From a virus, in IMG/VR virus record IMGVR_UViG_3300042890_004141, positions 1 to 64,000 of that record: 64,000 bases of DNA; one strand, 5' to 3'. The stretch's first letter is position 1, and the number at the start of each line of letters is the position of its first letter. Positions 2,949 to 62,526 of the stretch are shown piece by piece. Position numbers and translations under genes: made by a program. A model generated the notes under the pieces. The model was not told where the DNA came from and searched no databases. It was given only the letters and a program-made list of their open reading frames with translations.

Positions 2949-3128
2949 TTATTTAGTTAGAATATTTTTATTACCTGGGGTGTGTTTAGGTTCATAAGGA
3001 CAATTCAAACATTTATTACCACAACACTTGCCTAACTTAAGTAAAGTTTTAGCGGGGATTGGTAATTTGTTTTTTTTATTTAAGTTCCAATCCTCATCAT
3101 CTAATCTTTCAAGTGTTGCTTTATCCAT
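2949..3128 (-). CDS. Small Cys-rich protein, DUF5522-like, 59 aa
   Basis: This ORF (ATG 3128, TAA 2949) contains KCCGNKCLNCPYEPKH at about residues 34-49. That arrangement (CCGxxCxxCPY) recalls the small DUF5522 proteins, which look like metal or Fe-S binders of unknown role. It lies in a string of small genes with spacing under 20 nt. Confidence 0.65.
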   Translation of the reverse strand: MDKATLERLDDEDWNLNKKNKLPIPAKTLLKLGKCCGNKCLNCPYEPKHTPGNKNILTK

Positions 3129-3134
3129 ATTTAA

Positions 3135-3338
3135 TTATTTACTATTAATATATGTAACTAGCCCAACAATTGCTAAAATTACTAATATAGCCCCTAAAGG
3201 AATCCATAAAGGAGCAGTTACCCACCACCAAGACCAAGTAGCAACAACACCCCAACCACCAAGTTTAAGTGTTAAGAAAATCAAAAATAGAATTGTACCT
3301 AATCCTAAACCTTGAGAATCTTTATTATTTTTTTCCAT
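3135..3338 (-). CDS. Small membrane protein, 67 aa
   Basis: The protein begins MEKNNKDSQGLG and then has two hydrophobic segments: GTILFLIFLTL at about 13-23, and a Trp-rich one plus LGAILVILAIVGLVTYI near the C terminus. A longer frame opens at a TTG at 3353, but that codon lies next to the promoter box, so the ATG at 3338 is the likely start. The promoter box ends only 4 nt upstream, which implies a leaderless mRNA. Confidence 0.65.
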   Translation of the reverse strand: MEKNNKDSQGLGLGTILFLIFLTLKLGGWGVVATWSWWWVTAPLWIPLGAILVILAIVGLVTYINSK

Positions 3339-3342
3339 GCCA

Positions 3343-3374
3343 TGAATATACAAAAGAAGTTTTACAAAACCAAA
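3343..3374 (-). promoter_or_regulatory. Bacteroidota-type promoter, leaderless
   Basis: TTTGGT starts at 3374 and, after 20 nt, TATATTCA ends at 3343. The ATG at 3338 follows after 4 nt, so the transcript should begin at or next to the start codon. Confidence 0.7.
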
Positions 3375-3415
3375 TTAATTTGAAAGAGGTGCTTTAATAG
3401 TTGGTAATATAGTAA

Positions 3416-3928
3416 TCATTCTTTGTATTTCCAAATAAATTTATGGGCTGATTTTCTTCTCCCTTTACATACTTCACATATAGCTGAACTGGGTACTCCT
3501 GTTTTAGAATAGGCTTCACCCATTGATTTATATTCTGCTATGAAATTTCCTTGTTTATCAAATTGCAAAACAGCTGTACTAGTTCCTAGATCCCAAGTTA
3601 TTTTTTGTCCCTTAAGTTTATTACTAACTGTTGGTTTTTTTATTCCTTTTTGTTTATTTCCTATTAATTTCTTAGCTGATTCAGTTTGTTGGTTTGGTCC
3701 GCCACCACCCTTATTTTTATTTAATAAAGTTATATTCCAACCATTAAATAATTCAATCCACCATTGTTCCCAAAACATCCATTCATTTTCTTCTACTTCA
3801 TCAATTACTTCTAGAGATACATCTTTACTAAAATTTATTCTATGTTCTCTTAATCGTCTAATAGGTTCATTAGTTTTACCTAAATAAACAGGTATTTCGT
3901 TTTCTAATAATATATAAATTGAAATCAT
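3416..3928 (-). CDS. GIY-YIG homing endonuclease with NUMOD repeats
   Basis: The N terminus SIYILLENEIPVYLGKTN is a GIY-YIG nuclease start (IYI, then VYLGKT), followed by RRLREH with the usual Arg and His. The middle (GNKQKGIKKPTVSNKLKG) resembles NUMOD3 DNA-binding repeats. The C terminus (VLQFDKQGNFIAEYKSM to FIWKYKE) is a NUMOD1 helix-turn-helix module. It is free-standing, directly after thyA. T4's I-TevI is a GIY-YIG enzyme encoded in the td (thymidylate synthase) intron. Its start codon is inside a hairpin at 3926-3963. Confidence 0.85.
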   Translation of the reverse strand: MISIYILLENEIPVYLGKTNEPIRRLREHRINFSKDVSLEVIDEVEENEWMFWEQWWIELFNGWNITLLNKNKGGGGPNQQTESAKKLIGNKQKGIKKPTVSNKLKGQKITWDLGTSTAVLQFDKQGNFIAEYKSMGEAYSKTGVPSSAICEVCKGRRKSAHKFIWKYKE

Positions 3929-3963
3929 AATGGCACGTTTATTATAAATATTGTGCCATTATG
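3926..3963 (-). promoter_or_regulatory. Start-codon hairpin with late-type promoter box in the loop
   Basis: CATAATGGCAC and GTGCCATTATG form a perfect 11-bp inverted repeat (arms 3926-3936 and 3953-3963). The 16-nt loop contains AATATTTATAAT. The last three bases of the 3' arm on the coding strand are the ATG of the homing endonuclease. Transcripts entering from thyA would pair the start codon. Transcripts starting downstream of the loop box would lack the 5' arm. It may also act as an attenuator for thyA read-through. Confidence 0.7.
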
Positions 3964-3972
3964 TTTCTTACA

Positions 3973-4968
3973 CTAGTTTGATAAAGGAAATTTAATTGTT
4001 GGATGCGGGTCATACCCAATTAACATAAAATCATTTAAATCAATTTCATCAGCTTTACCGGCTAATGTGGCTCTAAAATTATGACCTGAACTCATATGTA
4101 ATCTAGGCAATTCACGAGGTTCTCTATTTATTTGTTCTTTAGCTCCTTCTAAATGGTCTGAATATAAATGGCAATCACCTAAATGGCCTATAAGGTGTTC
4201 AGGAATCATATTAACTTCTCTTGCTATCATTTCAAGTAATAAACCATAAGAAGCAATATTAAAGGGGAGGCCAAGAGCAGAATCTATACTACGCTGATTC
4301 CATAATAAACTTAAATAACGTTGTCCCTCTTTTTCCACAGAATATAGTTGGAAACTATGGTGACAAGGAGGTAATACCATATCTTCTAATTCAGCTACAT
4401 TCCAAGCTGAAACCATTAGTCGTCGTGAGTCTGGATTTGTTTTAAGTTCGTTAATTAGGTTTGCGATTTGGTCTGTGTATTCACCTGATCCATTATAATA
4501 ATCTGCCCATCTTCTCCATTGCCTACCGTAGATTGGCCCTAAGTCACCCCACTCTTTAGCAAACTCATTATCGGTTTTTATAAAGTTGATGAATTCTTCT
4601 TGTGTGAATGGTTCAGTCAATGTTCTATTTTTCTTAGAATTTTCTAATAATTTAGTTTTACCAACATATTCACCTTTATTATATCTTTTAATATACGCTT
4701 TATAACAATCTCCATCCCAAATATGACATTTATTATCAACCAAATACTTAATATTTGTATCACCCATCAAAAACCACATCAACTCAGTTGCCATTGTTTT
4801 AAATGGCATCTTTTTAGTAGTTAGTAATGGAAAACCATTCATCATATTGTGATGAATAGTATAACCAAAAATTGATTTAGTACCTGTTCCAGTACGATCC
4901 TTTTTATCTACTCCATACTCAAGAATATCCTTAAGTAATCTTTGATATTGTTCGTCTAATCTATTCAT
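3973..4968 (-). CDS. thyA: Thymidylate synthase ThyA
   Basis: This enzyme makes dTMP from dUMP with methylenetetrahydrofolate. The catalytic motif is LPPCHHSFQLYS with Cys202. DRTGTGT (24-30) and the double Arg of DSRRLM (180-184) are the phosphate-binding parts. At 331 residues it is longer than the 264-residue E. coli enzyme because of an insertion at about 95-145, as seen in other long ThyA proteins. The promoter box ends 4 nt before the ATG, so a leaderless message is likely. It sits next to a GIY-YIG homing endonuclease. Confidence 0.95.
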   Translation of the reverse strand: MNRLDEQYQRLLKDILEYGVDKKDRTGTGTKSIFGYTIHHNMMNGFPLLTTKKMPFKTMATELMWFLMGDTNIKYLVDNKCHIWDGDCYKAYIKRYNKGEYVGKTKLLENSKKNRTLTEPFTQEEFINFIKTDNEFAKEWGDLGPIYGRQWRRWADYYNGSGEYTDQIANLINELKTNPDSRRLMVSAWNVAELEDMVLPPCHHSFQLYSVEKEGQRYLSLLWNQRSIDSALGLPFNIASYGLLLEMIAREVNMIPEHLIGHLGDCHLYSDHLEGAKEQINREPRELPRLHMSSGHNFRATLAGKADEIDLNDFMLIGYDPHPTIKFPLSN

Positions 4969-4972
4969 GGCT

Positions 4973-5004
4973 TAAATATAAGGAGCCCCTTTCGGGGCTC
5001 CAAA
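4973..5004 (-). promoter_or_regulatory. Promoter whose spacer is a terminator hairpin
   Basis: TTTG (5004-5001) and TATATTTA (4980-4973) are separated by exactly 20 nt, and that spacer is the hairpin at 4982-5001. The ATG of thyA follows after 4 nt. Confidence 0.75.
4982..5001 (-). terminator. Rho-independent-like terminator of the secreted-protein gene
   Basis: GGAGCCCC and GGGGCTCC form an 8-bp GC-rich stem with a GAAA-type tetraloop, followed on the coding strand by TTATATTT. It lies 10 nt after the stop of the 296-aa gene and is embedded in the thyA promoter. Confidence 0.75.
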
Positions 5005-5010
5005 TCAAAT

Positions 5011-5901
5011 TTACTTTTTAATTATTTTTTTACTTGTTCCGTCACTGTAAATATAAACCACTAACTCATCCTCTTTAACGTTATAAACACGGCGGCCCAT
5101 CATATCATACATTGCGACAATCTTAGGTTCAGGTTTAATAATGGTGGTTATAGACGTTGTATTGGCGCGTTTACATACATCCAAACGTCTGAACATAAAT
5201 GTATCTTGTCTTAAGCACTTATTCCACCATTCAGCATACATCAACACACGTCCACTGTCTTTAAAGGTATAATCAGCAATTCGTGTTTGAGTATAACCTA
5301 AATAATCCGCATCCGGAAAATCATACTCTATACCAATTTGGTAATCAGTTAAATTATCCCATTCTTTCTGAGACATTGTATCCATCCAAGGTCCTTTATA
5401 AAATACCATATAGTACACCATACAAGTGTCTTTCAATGGATATCCTTTAATATAATTCATTTCAAACTTATATTTTTTACAATCATTCATATCTATAGAA
5501 TATCCTAACCCAGCACCTGGAAATTGGATTAGTTCTACTATACGATAAAGTGCTGTATCACATTTATTACATTTATTTACTACTTTTATATACAATTTGT
5601 ATTTACCTCTAGTATTAAATAATACTTCCACAAATCCATTCCTTTCATAAAGATAATACTCAAATCCTACACCAGTATCTTTTCCACCTTTAAGAACTTG
5701 AGATTTTCCTGTTTGAAAATTATAAATGGACATTTGATAACTAACACAAGTGTCATCACCAATCCCAGCACCACTTACTTGCCACTTATAGTAGTTACGT
5801 TCATTCCATTGCTGGAGTTTCAATGTGCTCCAATCACATTTGGCGTTCAAACCCAATACTGTCAATAAGGTAAAAACTAGAGTCATTAATTGTTTCTTCA
5901 T
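5011..5901 (-). CDS. Secreted protein with type IX secretion-like C terminus
   Basis: The N terminus (KKQLMTLVFTLLTVLGLNAKC) is a clear Sec signal peptide. The body has paired cysteines (CDW, KCNKCD, CKK, CKR), typical of an exported protein. The last 40 residues (KIVAMYDMMGRRVYNV, then YIYSDGTSKKIIKK) resemble the C-terminal sorting domain of type IX secretion substrates, a system confined to Bacteroidota. Function is unknown. It could coat or alter the surface of the infected cell, or be a gene taken from a host. Confidence 0.7.
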   Translation of the reverse strand: MKKQLMTLVFTLLTVLGLNAKCDWSTLKLQQWNERNYYKWQVSGAGIGDDTCVSYQMSIYNFQTGKSQVLKGGKDTGVGFEYYLYERNGFVEVLFNTRGKYKLYIKVVNKCNKCDTALYRIVELIQFPGAGLGYSIDMNDCKKYKFEMNYIKGYPLKDTCMVYYMVFYKGPWMDTMSQKEWDNLTDYQIGIEYDFPDADYLGYTQTRIADYTFKDSGRVLMYAEWWNKCLRQDTFMFRRLDVCKRANTTSITTIIKPEPKIVAMYDMMGRRVYNVKEDELVVYIYSDGTSKKIIKK

Positions 5902-7751: not shown

Positions 7752-7976
7752 TTAATCTAACAAACCGTTATTTTCTATAGTGTACCATACTCTTTCTTTC
7801 CATACTTCCAACTTAACACCTTCAATCCGGTCAGCATCTTTATAACCTAACATAGTATAATCAGCTAGTTTCCAAACCAATTCCATTAGTTTAGTGTCTG
7901 CTAGTTCCATATCACCTGTTTGAAGAATGTTTAGGCAATTTTTCCACATTGGGGTAATTATATTTGTTTTTCTCAT
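7752..7976 (-). CDS. Hypothetical protein, 74 aa
   Basis: Function unknown. A longer frame reaches 8018, but the ATG at 7976 has the recurring leader AATAAAAGTTATG and begins MRKTNIITPMWKNC, so it is the better start. The protein is helical with LADTKLMELVWKLADY in the centre and an acidic C terminus. Confidence 0.6.
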   Translation of the reverse strand: MRKTNIITPMWKNCLNILQTGDMELADTKLMELVWKLADYTMLGYKDADRIEGVKLEVWKERVWYTIENNGLLD

Positions 7977-7981
7977 AACTT

Positions 7982-8047
7982 TTATTTCTTTAATACATGA
8001 ATTGTCCATCCGGTCCAAGCTGCTGCTATTATTATTGTAACTACCAT
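7982..8047 (-). CDS. Very small membrane peptide, 21 aa
   Basis: The frame MVVTIIIAAAWTGWTIHVLK is a single hydrophobic helix preceded by the standard leader AATAAAGTTATG. Its stop is 6 nt before the next start. Although tiny, the leader and the fit between neighbours support translation. Function unknown. Confidence 0.5.
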   Translation of the reverse strand: MVVTIIIAAAWTGWTIHVLKK

Positions 8048-8058
8048 AACTTTATTTA

Positions 8059-8331
8059 TTAAATATAATCTTGAATATCATACATGTGCGTATCTTGATA
8101 AATTTCTACCATATCAAACTCGTTAGCTCTTTCATTTAAACTAGCAACTGTTTCAAAATAATCTTCTTTAGTTTTAACAGGAAAATCAACTTGGTTTCCA
8201 TTATCTAAACGCTTAACACATATACGAACCATATCGTATGATTCAATATAACCTGTCATTTCAGCTCTTCTAAGTTCAACATCATTATCAAATGTAAACT
8301 TGTAATTAGGATTGATTTTTATTTTTTCCAT
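8059..8331 (-). CDS. Hypothetical protein, 90 aa
   Basis: Function unknown. Short strands alternate with acidic helices (YKFTFDNDVELRRAEMTGYI, RVCVKRLDNGNQVDFPVK-like middle). It is the first gene behind the promoter at 8354-8385, with the leader AATAAAGGTTATG. Confidence 0.6.
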   Translation of the reverse strand: MEKIKINPNYKFTFDNDVELRRAEMTGYIESYDMVRICVKRLDNGNQVDFPVKTKEDYFETVASLNERANEFDMVEIYQDTHMYDIQDYI

Positions 8332-8353
8332 AACCTTTATTTCTTTTATAATA

Positions 8354-8385
8354 TAAATATAACAAATTAATCTCCGAAAGCCAAA
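8354..8385 (-). promoter_or_regulatory. Bacteroidota-type promoter
   Basis: TTTGGCT begins at 8385 and TATATTTA ends at 8354, with a 20-nt spacer. It overlaps the 3' end of the 48-aa gene and reads toward the gene at 8331. Confidence 0.8.
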
Positions 8386-8513
8386 CCCCTCTTTTCCTTT
8401 TTACGGTCGTAAACCTTTTTACTTGATTTAACCCTTGTAATCATGTTACGACGAATAATTTGTTTAACCTGTCCTTTACTTAAACCGTTAAATTTATCTT
8501 CCTGTTTCATCAT
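8367..8513 (-). CDS. Small basic protein, 48 aa
   Basis: This ORF (ATG 8513 or 8510, TAA 8367) encodes a Lys/Arg-rich peptide with LSKGQVKQIIRRNMITRV in the centre, which could be a short helix-turn-helix or RNA-binding helix. The promoter box of 8518-8549 ends 4 nt before the first ATG, so the message is probably leaderless. Confidence 0.6.
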   Translation of the reverse strand: MMKQEDKFNGLSKGQVKQIIRRNMITRVKSSKKVYDRKKEKRGLAFGD

Positions 8514-8517
8514 ATTG

Positions 8518-8549
8518 TAAATATAACAAAGGGATCTAGCAAAGCCAAA
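8518..8549 (-). promoter_or_regulatory. Bacteroidota-type promoter, leaderless
   Basis: TTTGGCT begins at 8549 and TATATTTA ends at 8518 with a 20-nt spacer. The start codon at 8513 follows after 4 nt. Confidence 0.8.
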
Positions 8550-8578
8550 CCCCTTTTTTTATTATAATTTGTTTTTTA

Positions 8579-9058
8579 TTATTTAATAATACCTGCTCTA
8601 TGTAACCACTGACGGTTAATATATTCTTTAAGTTCAGTATCATCTTCTTCAGTTTTTACTTCTGAAGTTGGTTCTGTGTTTCTAATTTGGTCTAATAAAG
8701 TGCCTACAAAGTATTGTCTACCTTTATTCATATCAAGAGTAACCCATTTATCTTCTAACCAAACATAAACAACCTCCGCACCTTTTCCCTTAGCATAATA
8801 ATATAATTCACTAAATAAATCTTCTGGTTCATCATCTGTGATTTGTACTGCACCACCTTTATCATAGCGTTCTACCTCTCCAGTTTCAGAATCAATAAAT
8901 CTAATATCATTACCGTTCATTACTAAATCCTCAGCTTCAGAATCTGAATTGAAGTATTCTGGGAGTACTTTATTTAAGTCAGAGTCTGATGCATAATGGA
9001 TATAAATTGAAAATATTGAATTTGAATCTGCTAAATAAGCTATTTGTCCTCTTGTCAT
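8579..9058 (-). CDS. Acidic hypothetical protein, 159 aa
   Basis: Function unknown. The protein has a regular alpha/beta look (YVDS- and EVVYVWLEDKWVTL-type strands), is rich in Asp and Glu, and ends INRQWLHRAGIIK. Upstream of its ATG is CATATTTATAAT without a TTTG box, the same late-type motif seen before tail genes. It may therefore be made late or encode a virion part. Confidence 0.6.
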   Translation of the reverse strand: MTRGQIAYLADSNSIFSIYIHYASDSDLNKVLPEYFNSDSEAEDLVMNGNDIRFIDSETGEVERYDKGGAVQITDDEPEDLFSELYYYAKGKGAEVVYVWLEDKWVTLDMNKGRQYFVGTLLDQIRNTEPTSEVKTEEDDTELKEYINRQWLHRAGIIK

Positions 9059-33130: not shown

Positions 33131-33748
33131 TTAAATTTCTTTATATTTCCAAATAAAACCACCTGATGATTTTTGTCTTCCTTTACATGTTCCTATTATA
33201 CCCATTTCTGATTTATAACCTAGATAATCTCTAGCTTCATTTATGCTATCCCATTCTTTAATAGGAATACCAGATAAATCACATTGGATAACTGATTTTT
33301 TATGGGGGTTAGCATTTTTCATTCTTTGGATTGTATTGAGGGATGTTGATCTTTTTTTAGCTATACCTATTTTATCTATGTTTACTTCTGTATAGGTAGG
33401 ATTAGTTTTAGTTATTAAATGACATAAGTATATTAAATCATTATCATCAATATCTGATTTTATGTGATTAATAGCTTTATGGACCCATCTAATATTATCT
33501 TTTTCATATCCTTTGGAACTATCAATTCTATCTAAAGAGGCTGTGTTTAAATGGTAATTATAAGATATTGTAGCGTTTACAATATTAATATCTACCTTTG
33601 TTAAAGCACATTTTTTGTTTTGTTTTAAAAATAAATCCCATAAGTAATCTATATCTAAATCAAAACTTAAACCTCTTTTGATAGCGTTTGATTGTATTTT
33701 TTTAAAAAAAGTAATACAAATTTTTTCTGATGATTTTTTTCTAGCCAT
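33131..33748 (-). CDS. HNH homing endonuclease with NUMOD1 tail
   Basis: TASLDRIDSSKGYEKDNIRW is the HNH core found in phage homing enzymes, followed by VHKAIN. The C terminus VIQCDLSGIPIKEWDSINEA to FIWKYKEI is a NUMOD1 module similar to that of the GIY-YIG enzyme at 3416. It is free-standing, next to folE. A 9-bp hairpin lies in front of its start. Confidence 0.85.
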   Translation of the reverse strand: MARKKSSEKICITFFKKIQSNAIKRGLSFDLDIDYLWDLFLKQNKKCALTKVDINIVNATISYNYHLNTASLDRIDSSKGYEKDNIRWVHKAINHIKSDIDDNDLIYLCHLITKTNPTYTEVNIDKIGIAKKRSTSLNTIQRMKNANPHKKSVIQCDLSGIPIKEWDSINEARDYLGYKSEMGIIGTCKGRQKSSGGFIWKYKEI

Positions 33749-33755
33749 GTTTATG

Positions 33756-33785
33756 TTCTATGTGTCTATACATATGCACATAGAA
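33756..33785 (-). promoter_or_regulatory. Hairpin before the HNH homing endonuclease
   Basis: TTCTATGTG and CACATAGAA form a perfect 9-bp stem around a 12-nt loop that contains ATATGTATA, one base from the late-type box ATATTTATA. It lies between the folE stop and the endonuclease ATG at 33748. It could end folE transcripts, restrict translation of the endonuclease, or both. Confidence 0.55.
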
Positions 33786-60723: not shown

Positions 60724-62481
60724 TTACGCTGGGAAAGTTGCTCCAGTAGGTAAGATGTTGAAATCCAAGTAAATGAATTCAGCTGTCTTAGTCGGCTGTA
60801 AGTAAATTTGACCAACCAATTGGTTTCTATCAATTACATCAGGAGTGTTATTGCTATCATCCATTACTACTTTAAAAGCATACAAACCTTGACGTTGTTG
60901 AACTGATTCCAAATATGGGTTAACTTGGTTCAAGAAACTAGTACGAGTAGCAATTGTGTTCTGTTCAAATACCAAGTTTTGAGCAACTTGAGAAATGTAA
61001 GATTTAAGAGCAATTAACAAACGACGAACGTTTACACGATCCAAAGCGCTAGCTTTAGTTTGTAATGTTTTTTGTCCGTAAACTACAACTCCAGTTCCGG
61101 GGAAAGTAGCAATTGGGTTAACTTTATTTTGATATAAAGTGTCGCGTTGTGATTGAGTCAATTTCTTTTCAGCTCTTACCACTGTGCTTAAACCACCTCT
61201 GTTAATACCTGCAGGTGCAAACCAAGGCTCTGATACTGTATCATTGTAAGCATAAACACCACCAACCATAGTTGAAGCTGGTACCCAAACCAATTGAGCA
61301 GAATCTGGATCAACTGTTTGAACCCAAGGCCAGTATGAAGCAGCGTATGAAGTATTTTTAGCGTTAGCAGCTGAGGTAGCATCATTAACACTTGAACTAA
61401 AAGGTACTAAATCAGTTACATAAATAGCATCTCCACGATTTTGAGTGTTACTAATGATTGATGTTACTTGGGAAGCACCAATAGTAGCTGTATTAGCAAA
61501 TAAACCAGGAGTTAACAATACATTGTATCTGTAGTCATCAGCATTAGCCATCAAACTAATCATATCACTGTAATCGCTGCCTGTTAAACCTTGAGTGTTA
61601 GTTGAAGCAACATCAATGTTATTATAATAATCAGCGCCTGAACCGAATAAATCACCAACAGCACCTATGAATGATCCACTTGCGTTAGCTGGAAGAGATC
61701 CGGTTAATGTTGATTTAGCTATACCGTTATTATCAAAATAGAATGGTGTAGGAGTTTTAACACTTTGTACATACACGTATCTTGAATTGTTAGGATAGTC
61801 TCCAGTGATTGAAATTTGGTTATCTACAGAATTGTAAGATTTTACTTGGTTACCAATTATTCTAGATACGAAATTAGGAGCGGTTGGGTCCATTGATAAG
61901 TTAGTCCAACTTTCTAATACAGTAATGTTATTTGTAGTGTCATCACCTTGACGAATAAACAAACTAAAAGTACCGTTAGCGGTATCTTGGTTTGCAATTT
62001 GCCATCTGATATTATCAGCTGAACCTGAAGCTGTTAATGATCCACTAGCATCTAATGAGCAAGAACTGTTCATTAATTTACCTTGTGAAATAGTATTTAA
62101 TACTAAAGCTTCAGCTGCTGAGGCTGAGTTTAAAATAGATACTCCACCACCTGATCCACCAGTTACTGAACCTGTAGCGGTTGTAGCTGAAGTGAATGAA
62201 CCACTCACTACTCGTGATACCAACAATGTCTCTCCACCGTTATTAAAATAGTTGAAAGCAGCAATTGAGGTGAAATAAGTGTAAACTTGGCTAGCACTTA
62301 AAAAAGTAGTACCAAATTTATTCTGATAATCACTGTATGAAGTAACGATTGTAGGAATTTCTACAGGGCCTTTAACAGTAGGACCAATAAGAGCGGCTCC
62401 TACAGTTACTGGCTGTTGGGTGATAAATGACTGATCGTTTTCAAGTGCGAGTACGCCAGGGGATATTAAAGTTTCTGCCAT
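60724..62481 (-). CDS. Tail sheath protein, gp18-like
   Basis: The start SPGVLALENDQSFITQQPVT and VGAALIGPTVKGPVEIP, plus ATFPGTGVVVYGQKTL, RVNVRRLLIALKSYISQVAQ and FKVVMDDSNNTPDVIDRNQL, are the N- and C-terminal blocks of contractile tail sheaths. The middle (about 110-330) is Ser/Thr/Asn-rich and carries the surface domain. It shows the tail is contractile. Confidence 0.95.
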   Translation of the reverse strand: MAETLISPGVLALENDQSFITQQPVTVGAALIGPTVKGPVEIPTIVTSYSDYQNKFGTTFLSASQVYTYFTSIAAFNYFNNGGETLLVSRVVSGSFTSATTATGSVTGGSGGGVSILNSASAAEALVLNTISQGKLMNSSCSLDASGSLTASGSADNIRWQIANQDTANGTFSLFIRQGDDTTNNITVLESWTNLSMDPTAPNFVSRIIGNQVKSYNSVDNQISITGDYPNNSRYVYVQSVKTPTPFYFDNNGIAKSTLTGSLPANASGSFIGAVGDLFGSGADYYNNIDVASTNTQGLTGSDYSDMISLMANADDYRYNVLLTPGLFANTATIGASQVTSIISNTQNRGDAIYVTDLVPFSSSVNDATSAANAKNTSYAASYWPWVQTVDPDSAQLVWVPASTMVGGVYAYNDTVSEPWFAPAGINRGGLSTVVRAEKKLTQSQRDTLYQNKVNPIATFPGTGVVVYGQKTLQTKASALDRVNVRRLLIALKSYISQVAQNLVFEQNTIATRTSFLNQVNPYLESVQQRQGLYAFKVVMDDSNNTPDVIDRNQLVGQIYLQPTKTAEFIYLDFNILPTGATFPA

Positions 62482-62504: not shown

Positions 62505-62526
62505 TTCTATGATAAATATCATAGAA
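62505..62526 (-). promoter_or_regulatory. Palindrome around a late-type box before the sheath gene
   Basis: TTCTATGATA and TATCATAGAA form a 10-bp inverted repeat with only two bases between. Its centre contains ATATTTAT, the late-type box. It lies 24 nt before the sheath start and could be an operator or hairpin. Confidence 0.5.

Follow-up and report, generated by a model that had tools for sequence, protein, structure and literature searches.

The window analysed here is a 64 kb stretch of a 135.8 kb virus record from IMG/VR, in which all of the 168 called genes lie on the minus strand and which has genes for a T4-type clamp loader and tail tube. Its thymidylate synthase gene, thyA, has its closest GenBank match in Flavobacterium phage immuto, a phage carrying gp20- and gp23-like genes. 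Directly downstream of thyA lies an open reading frame (ORF) for a putative GIY-YIG endonuclease, whose start codon is part of an inverted repeat. Compared with GenBank phages, this thyA/GIY-YIG locus gave no DNA match and only remote protein matches. The features discussed below are the following:

4973..5004, minus strand: host-type promoter-like element TTTGGAGCCCCGAAAGGGGCTCCTTATATTTA immediately upstream of thyA; a strong terminator-like stem at 4982-5001 overlaps it (motif class and terminator scan).
3973..4968, minus strand: thyA (thymidylate synthase), the gene upstream of the endonuclease gene (Pfam PF00303, E=1.2e-96).
3973..4002, minus strand: thyA 3' end (..PTIKFPLSN*) carried with the endonuclease unit; its TTCCTTTATCAAA is common to all inserted loci (locus comparison).
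3953..3963, minus strand: hairpin 5' arm CATAATGGCAC, which only thyA read-through RNA contains (sequence, fold, covariation).
3937..3952, minus strand: 16-nt loop AATATTTATAATAAAC containing the late-class box ATATTTATAA, with the core ATATTTAT at 3944-3951 (box statistics).
3935..3940, minus strand: expected transcript start if the spacing is T4-late-like, some 12-17 nt downstream of where the box core begins, which would give an RNA without the 5' arm.
3926..3936, minus strand: hairpin 3' arm GTGCCATTATG, the start codon being its final three bases (sequence, fold, covariation).
3416..3928, minus strand: GIY-YIG endonuclease ORF, 170 aa, with a C-terminal I-HmuI-like, NUMOD-type DNA-binding region (Pfam, homologs, substitution bias).
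3375..3404, minus strand: former thyA 3' end (..PTIKAPLSN*), surviving as a remnant downstream of the endonuclease gene (locus comparison).
33756..33785, minus strand: second hairpin of like design, with loop box ATATGTATA, before the HNH endonuclease ORF 33131-33748 (inverted-repeat scan and relatives).

The ORF at 3416-3928 matched the Pfam models GIY-YIG (E=0.0016, below the curated cut-off) and I-HmuI_NUMOD-like (E=0.0028). Moreover, GIY-YIG homologs were found by protein search, and substitutions in the ORF are biased to the third codon position. An AlphaFold model of the protein had a mean pLDDT of 41 and was set aside. With weak but consistent Pfam hits to the domain and to an accessory DNA-binding motif, and with its insertion in a conserved gene, the product appears to be a GIY-YIG homing endonuclease, for which cleavage is predicted. 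At 5011-5901, a 296-aa ORF combines a signal-peptide-like start with a C-terminus resembling a type IX secretion sorting domain, which is unusual in a phage.

Locus comparison shows how the gene became joined to thyA. Uninserted thyA genes (L045, L046 and immuto) end in IKAPLSN*, whereas inserted ones end in IK(F/I/L)PLSN*, encoded by the common TTCCTTTATCAAA stretch, and in three loci, L032 and L033 being like the window, the old ending ..IKAPLSN* is still found immediately downstream of the endonuclease gene. Insertion thus exchanges the end of the target gene for one brought by the unit, which also carries the hairpin and box.

Read from 3963 to 3926, the minus strand is CATAATGGCAC - AATATTTATAATAAAC - GTGCCATTATG. 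The original prediction, which named no strand, had placed here a perfect 11-bp inverted repeat around a 16-nt loop, with the ATG of the GIY-YIG gene (3928-3926) forming the last three bases of the 3' arm; both points were confirmed, the arms being exactly complementary. The hairpin begins about 9-10 nt past the thyA stop codon. It is the longest perfect inverted repeat (loop ≤30) within the 64 kb window, but since about one such 11-bp repeat per 64 kb is expected by chance at the window's composition (our estimate), its length alone proves little. An Rfam search returned nothing relevant, and scanning bacterial genomes for the hairpin pattern yielded chance matches only.

It had further been proposed that RNA read through from thyA would lock the ATG in the stem, while RNA started from the loop box would lack the 5' arm and leave the ATG free, and the computed structures agree with both statements. 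For the read-through RNA, a folding energy of -19.5 kcal/mol was computed (z -4.1; as good in 0 of 200 shuffles), with a stem that extends slightly past the AUG, and of 1000 shuffled versions of its upstream side, only 1 hid the AUG equally deep. RNA starting at the 3' arm, on the other hand, is essentially unfolded (-1.9, z +0.9). The predicted cost of opening the AUG is 10.8 kcal/mol in the thyA read-through RNA versus 0.9 in the box-initiated RNA, a difference of 9.9 that is robust to transcript-start offsets of 12-17. Among the 35 boxes of the genome, the runner-up to this hairpin reaches 5.6 and most remain below 3.5; related members of the thyA-linked family show differences of 8.0-10.7. 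Because Shine-Dalgarno sequences are not used in the virus genome, a stem would have to hide the region of the AUG itself.

Protein search combined with a pattern scan identified five distinct thyA-linked loci, whose GIY-YIG proteins are 85-90% identical. The loop box is invariant in all five. Within the stem, pair 9 is either C-G or U-A, pair 10 either A-U or G-C, and pair 11, which closes the loop, either C-G or U-A, with a C-A mismatch in two loci. Three of the 11 pairs have thus changed on both sides while still pairing, and 96.4% of the cells are paired, although this covariation comprises five sequences and three pairs, the other 8 of 11 being invariant. The same degree of pairing was reached in 8 of 500 shuffles, and shifting the partner by 1-3 columns lowered it to 18-58%. 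Judging from these compensatory changes, selection acts on the base pairing of the hairpin.

To place the loop box among the signals of this phage, promoter-like sequences of the virus record were grouped, which revealed two classes: a host-type TTTGG-N18-TATATTTA, and ATATTTATAA without a TTTG at -33. The promoter consensus of the host group, the Bacteroidota, consists of TTTG at -33 and TAnnTTTG at -7 (PMC7366714), and the former class matches it. Elements of the form TTTGG[CA]-N15-19-TANNTTT[AG] are confined to the coding strand, with 12 occurrences; 11 of these 12 host-type elements lie in the early/metabolic half of the genome, one of them directly before thyA. The GIY-YIG gene adjoins, on the downstream side, a gene with a promoter-like element of a class found mostly in the early half.

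The box core ATATTTAT, in turn, shows an enrichment of about 36-fold in the 60 nt upstream of genes relative to gene bodies; it occurs 46 times on the coding strand versus 11 on the opposite strand, mostly 12-38 nt 5' of an ATG. In the structural half, 24 of 76 genes are preceded by a box without TTTGG, versus 6 of 92 in the other half. Beyond this record, ATATTTATAATAAA followed by ATG is present in at least 120 IMG/VR contigs, where many of the genes so led encode tail tube, sheath or portal, and immuto carries the box as well (16 versus 3 by strand). The loop box had been described as Bacteroidota-type, a label that needs correcting: there is no TTTG at a spacing of about 19 nt, and AATATTTA differs from TAnnTTTG at both ends. 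It is instead the late-class ATATTTATAA of the phage group, similar to the host -7 box without being identical to it. In view of its distribution, ATATTTATAA seems to be a late-like element of the phage group's own.

Neither is the box by sequence a T4 late promoter, as the sense sequence is ATATTTATAA and TATAAATA does not stand in the direction of transcription; TATAAATA is nearly confined to the opposite strand, as the complement of the sense box. Searches for a gp55-like protein (by sequence and with PHROG_234 and PHROG_12791) and for sigma-70 region 2 (PF04542) found none in the incomplete source record, in its closest long relative (171.7 kb) or in the complete immuto genome. The absence means little for the source record because of its incompleteness, yet the same models also failed to detect these proteins in complete immuto. 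Some box-bearing phages (G003, G005, G006; L190-L195) do encode sigma-70 region 2 proteins, which are candidate readers of the box. A sigma-70 promoter scan showed no excess over shuffles and is uninformative here. In the open-access literature searched, we found no described late promoter of Bacteroidota T4-like phages. Elsewhere in the window, the tail-sheath-like gene 60724-62481 is preceded by a late box that itself lies inside a perfect palindrome, TTCTATGATATTTATCATAGAA (62505-62526).

Recurrence at other endonuclease genes was assessed in an independent sample of contigs chosen by the box alone (L066-L185). The median difference in opening cost was 4.7 in 9 endonuclease genes versus 1.1 in 119 other box-led genes (p ~2e-4), and p stayed between 2e-4 and 1e-3 under every setting tried. 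Endonuclease labels were assigned from inspection of the proteins, without blinding to the earlier hairpin scores; Pfam or PHROGs later backed 9 of 9. Contigs L058-L065 were excluded from the test because their scan had required CCATTATG after the box and was therefore biased towards start-codon stems. The sampled stems share no sequence, and the nucleases are of GIY-YIG, HNH, endonuclease VII-like and other types.

Within the window, the second hairpin at 33756-33785 has the ATG of the HNH gene just downstream of, and outside, the stem; three relatives (L197-L199) carry the exact ATATTTATAA in the loop. A further GIY-YIG gene of the same phage (103499-104035), situated amid late genes, has the box and no such hairpin, as expected if a stem is required only at genes that early read-through would otherwise switch on. 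We give even odds to the broader proposal that mobile endonuclease genes of T4-related Bacteroidota phages carry, as a general rule, a hairpin that holds the late box in its loop. GIY-YIG, HNH, endonuclease VII-like and DUF7487/TnsA-like genes would each have gained their own stem around the same box, the T4 solution arising repeatedly with another promoter code and no Shine-Dalgarno sequence.

Three further cases were observed. On the minus strand of L062, a different endonuclease-like gene with box and hairpin (ORF 3004-4026), which its homolog L059 marks as DUF7487 type, is flanked by an N-terminal thyA fragment on one side and a second thyA N-terminus on the other, and looks like a mirror image of the present case at the thyA 5' end. 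In L150, a 406-aa protein without clear family (7758-8975), TnpB-type nuclease-like by eye, is preceded by a strong start-codon stem around a late box. In L134 (8424-8637), just past a tRNA-like sequence, a 10-bp stem (GTAATTGGTT / AACCAATTAT) with the late box in its loop precedes the gene of a 56-aa membrane-like protein, possibly a lysis gene timed like T4 gene e.

We consider a translational switch, off in read-through RNA and on late, to be the best explanation for the arrangement at this mobile endonuclease gene, with a probability of about 0.77. Early and middle transcripts would start upstream of thyA, run on and contain both arms, so that the AUG of the GIY-YIG gene would be locked in the stem and left untranslated. 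A late RNA polymerase would then start at the loop box. Its transcript would begin at the 3' arm or slightly ahead of it, so that the 5' arm would be missing, the AUG would lie exposed in an unstructured leader, and the endonuclease would be made late. The gene is thus probably read only late in infection. Computation supports the switch through the hairpin, its covariation, the late-class identity of the box, the energy switch and the recurrence at other endonuclease genes, while we infer the role of the box as promoter, its firing time, the read-through from thyA and the block of ribosomes by the stem.

A perfect palindrome can equally be a protein site, and the dyad might act at the DNA level, as an operator around the late promoter through which the endonuclease or another regulator represses the gene, RNA folding being incidental. 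Autorepression has been shown for T4 I-TevI, whose operator overlaps its late promoter (PMC2988022). However, comparison of the leader with the homing-site region of thyA revealed no similarity above shuffles. Moreover, the arms change in sequence while keeping complementarity, and the layout recurs at other endonuclease genes with arms of unrelated sequence; both observations are easier to reconcile with pairing than with a protein that binds a specific sequence. We therefore regard an operator as the sole basis of the palindrome as unlikely, though operator and RNA switch are compatible and could coexist at the hairpin.

Considerably less probable still is a role as terminator, RNase III site or mRNA-stability element at the end of thyA. 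The stability of the hairpin and its position shortly after the thyA stop codon would suit such an element; yet no T-run trails it, it is absent from a terminator scan that does list one before thyA, and an element of this kind need neither end on a start codon nor carry a late box in its loop. Least probable, by a small step, is that the inverted repeat is a by-product of the mobile cassette without regulatory role, for although it moves together with the unit and the replaced thyA tail, the compensatory changes imply selection on pairing and the repeat is found at the start codon rather than at the borders of the inserted unit.

The logic of the proposed translational switch, a hairpin combined with a late promoter, is known from T4 I-TevI, I-TevII, I-TevIII and segB, Aeh1 mobE, and T4 genes e, soc and 49 (PMC2988022, PMC3014915). 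The T4 precedents invoked in the original prediction are apt, since the hairpin anatomy matches that of I-TevI, I-TevII and I-TevIII, and genes e and soc use the same logic (PMC2988022, PMC3014915). As in these T4 switches, a stable stem including the translation start is predicted in the read-through RNA. In I-TevI, I-TevII and I-TevIII, the group I intron endonucleases of td, nrdD and nrdB, the stem likewise forms only in upstream-initiated RNA, with a late box in or beside it, and I-TevI is also located in a thymidylate synthase gene. For I-TevII, a nearly identical calculation, its window slightly widened to include the ribosome-binding site, gave a comparable computed switch of 11.6 versus 0.5 kcal/mol. 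In contrast to the three T4 genes, the GIY-YIG locus contains no intron, its late box is ATATTTATAA instead of TATAAATA, the AUG itself is in the stem without a Shine-Dalgarno sequence, no gp55 is recognisable in the virus record, and operator-like similarity to the homing site is absent.

Aeromonas phage Aeh1 mobE and T4 segB resemble the present gene as free-standing endonucleases beside or inside a nucleotide-metabolism gene, with hairpins that sequester the ribosome-binding site and late promoters (PMC2988022). They differ in nuclease (HNH for mobE), target gene, promoter system and translation signals, and in that the GIY-YIG unit substitutes its own sequence for the 3' end of the target gene. 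T4 e, soc and 49 are late genes in an early-transcribed region whose start is locked in early RNA and free in late-promoter RNA (PMC3014915); they are non-mobile, however, and depend on Shine-Dalgarno sequences. On sequence grounds, the novelty with respect to the T4 cases would consist in another promoter, the lack of a Shine-Dalgarno sequence, the buried AUG and the distant phage group, the working logic being known.

If the translational switch is real, late timing through burial of the start in read-through RNA would be either convergent or deeply conserved, and not a peculiarity of the T-even phages. Such a switch would moreover work without a Shine-Dalgarno sequence, by hiding the AUG itself. 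The box also provides a candidate late-promoter motif for a large group of uncultured phages, and the isolated phage immuto allows it to be tested.
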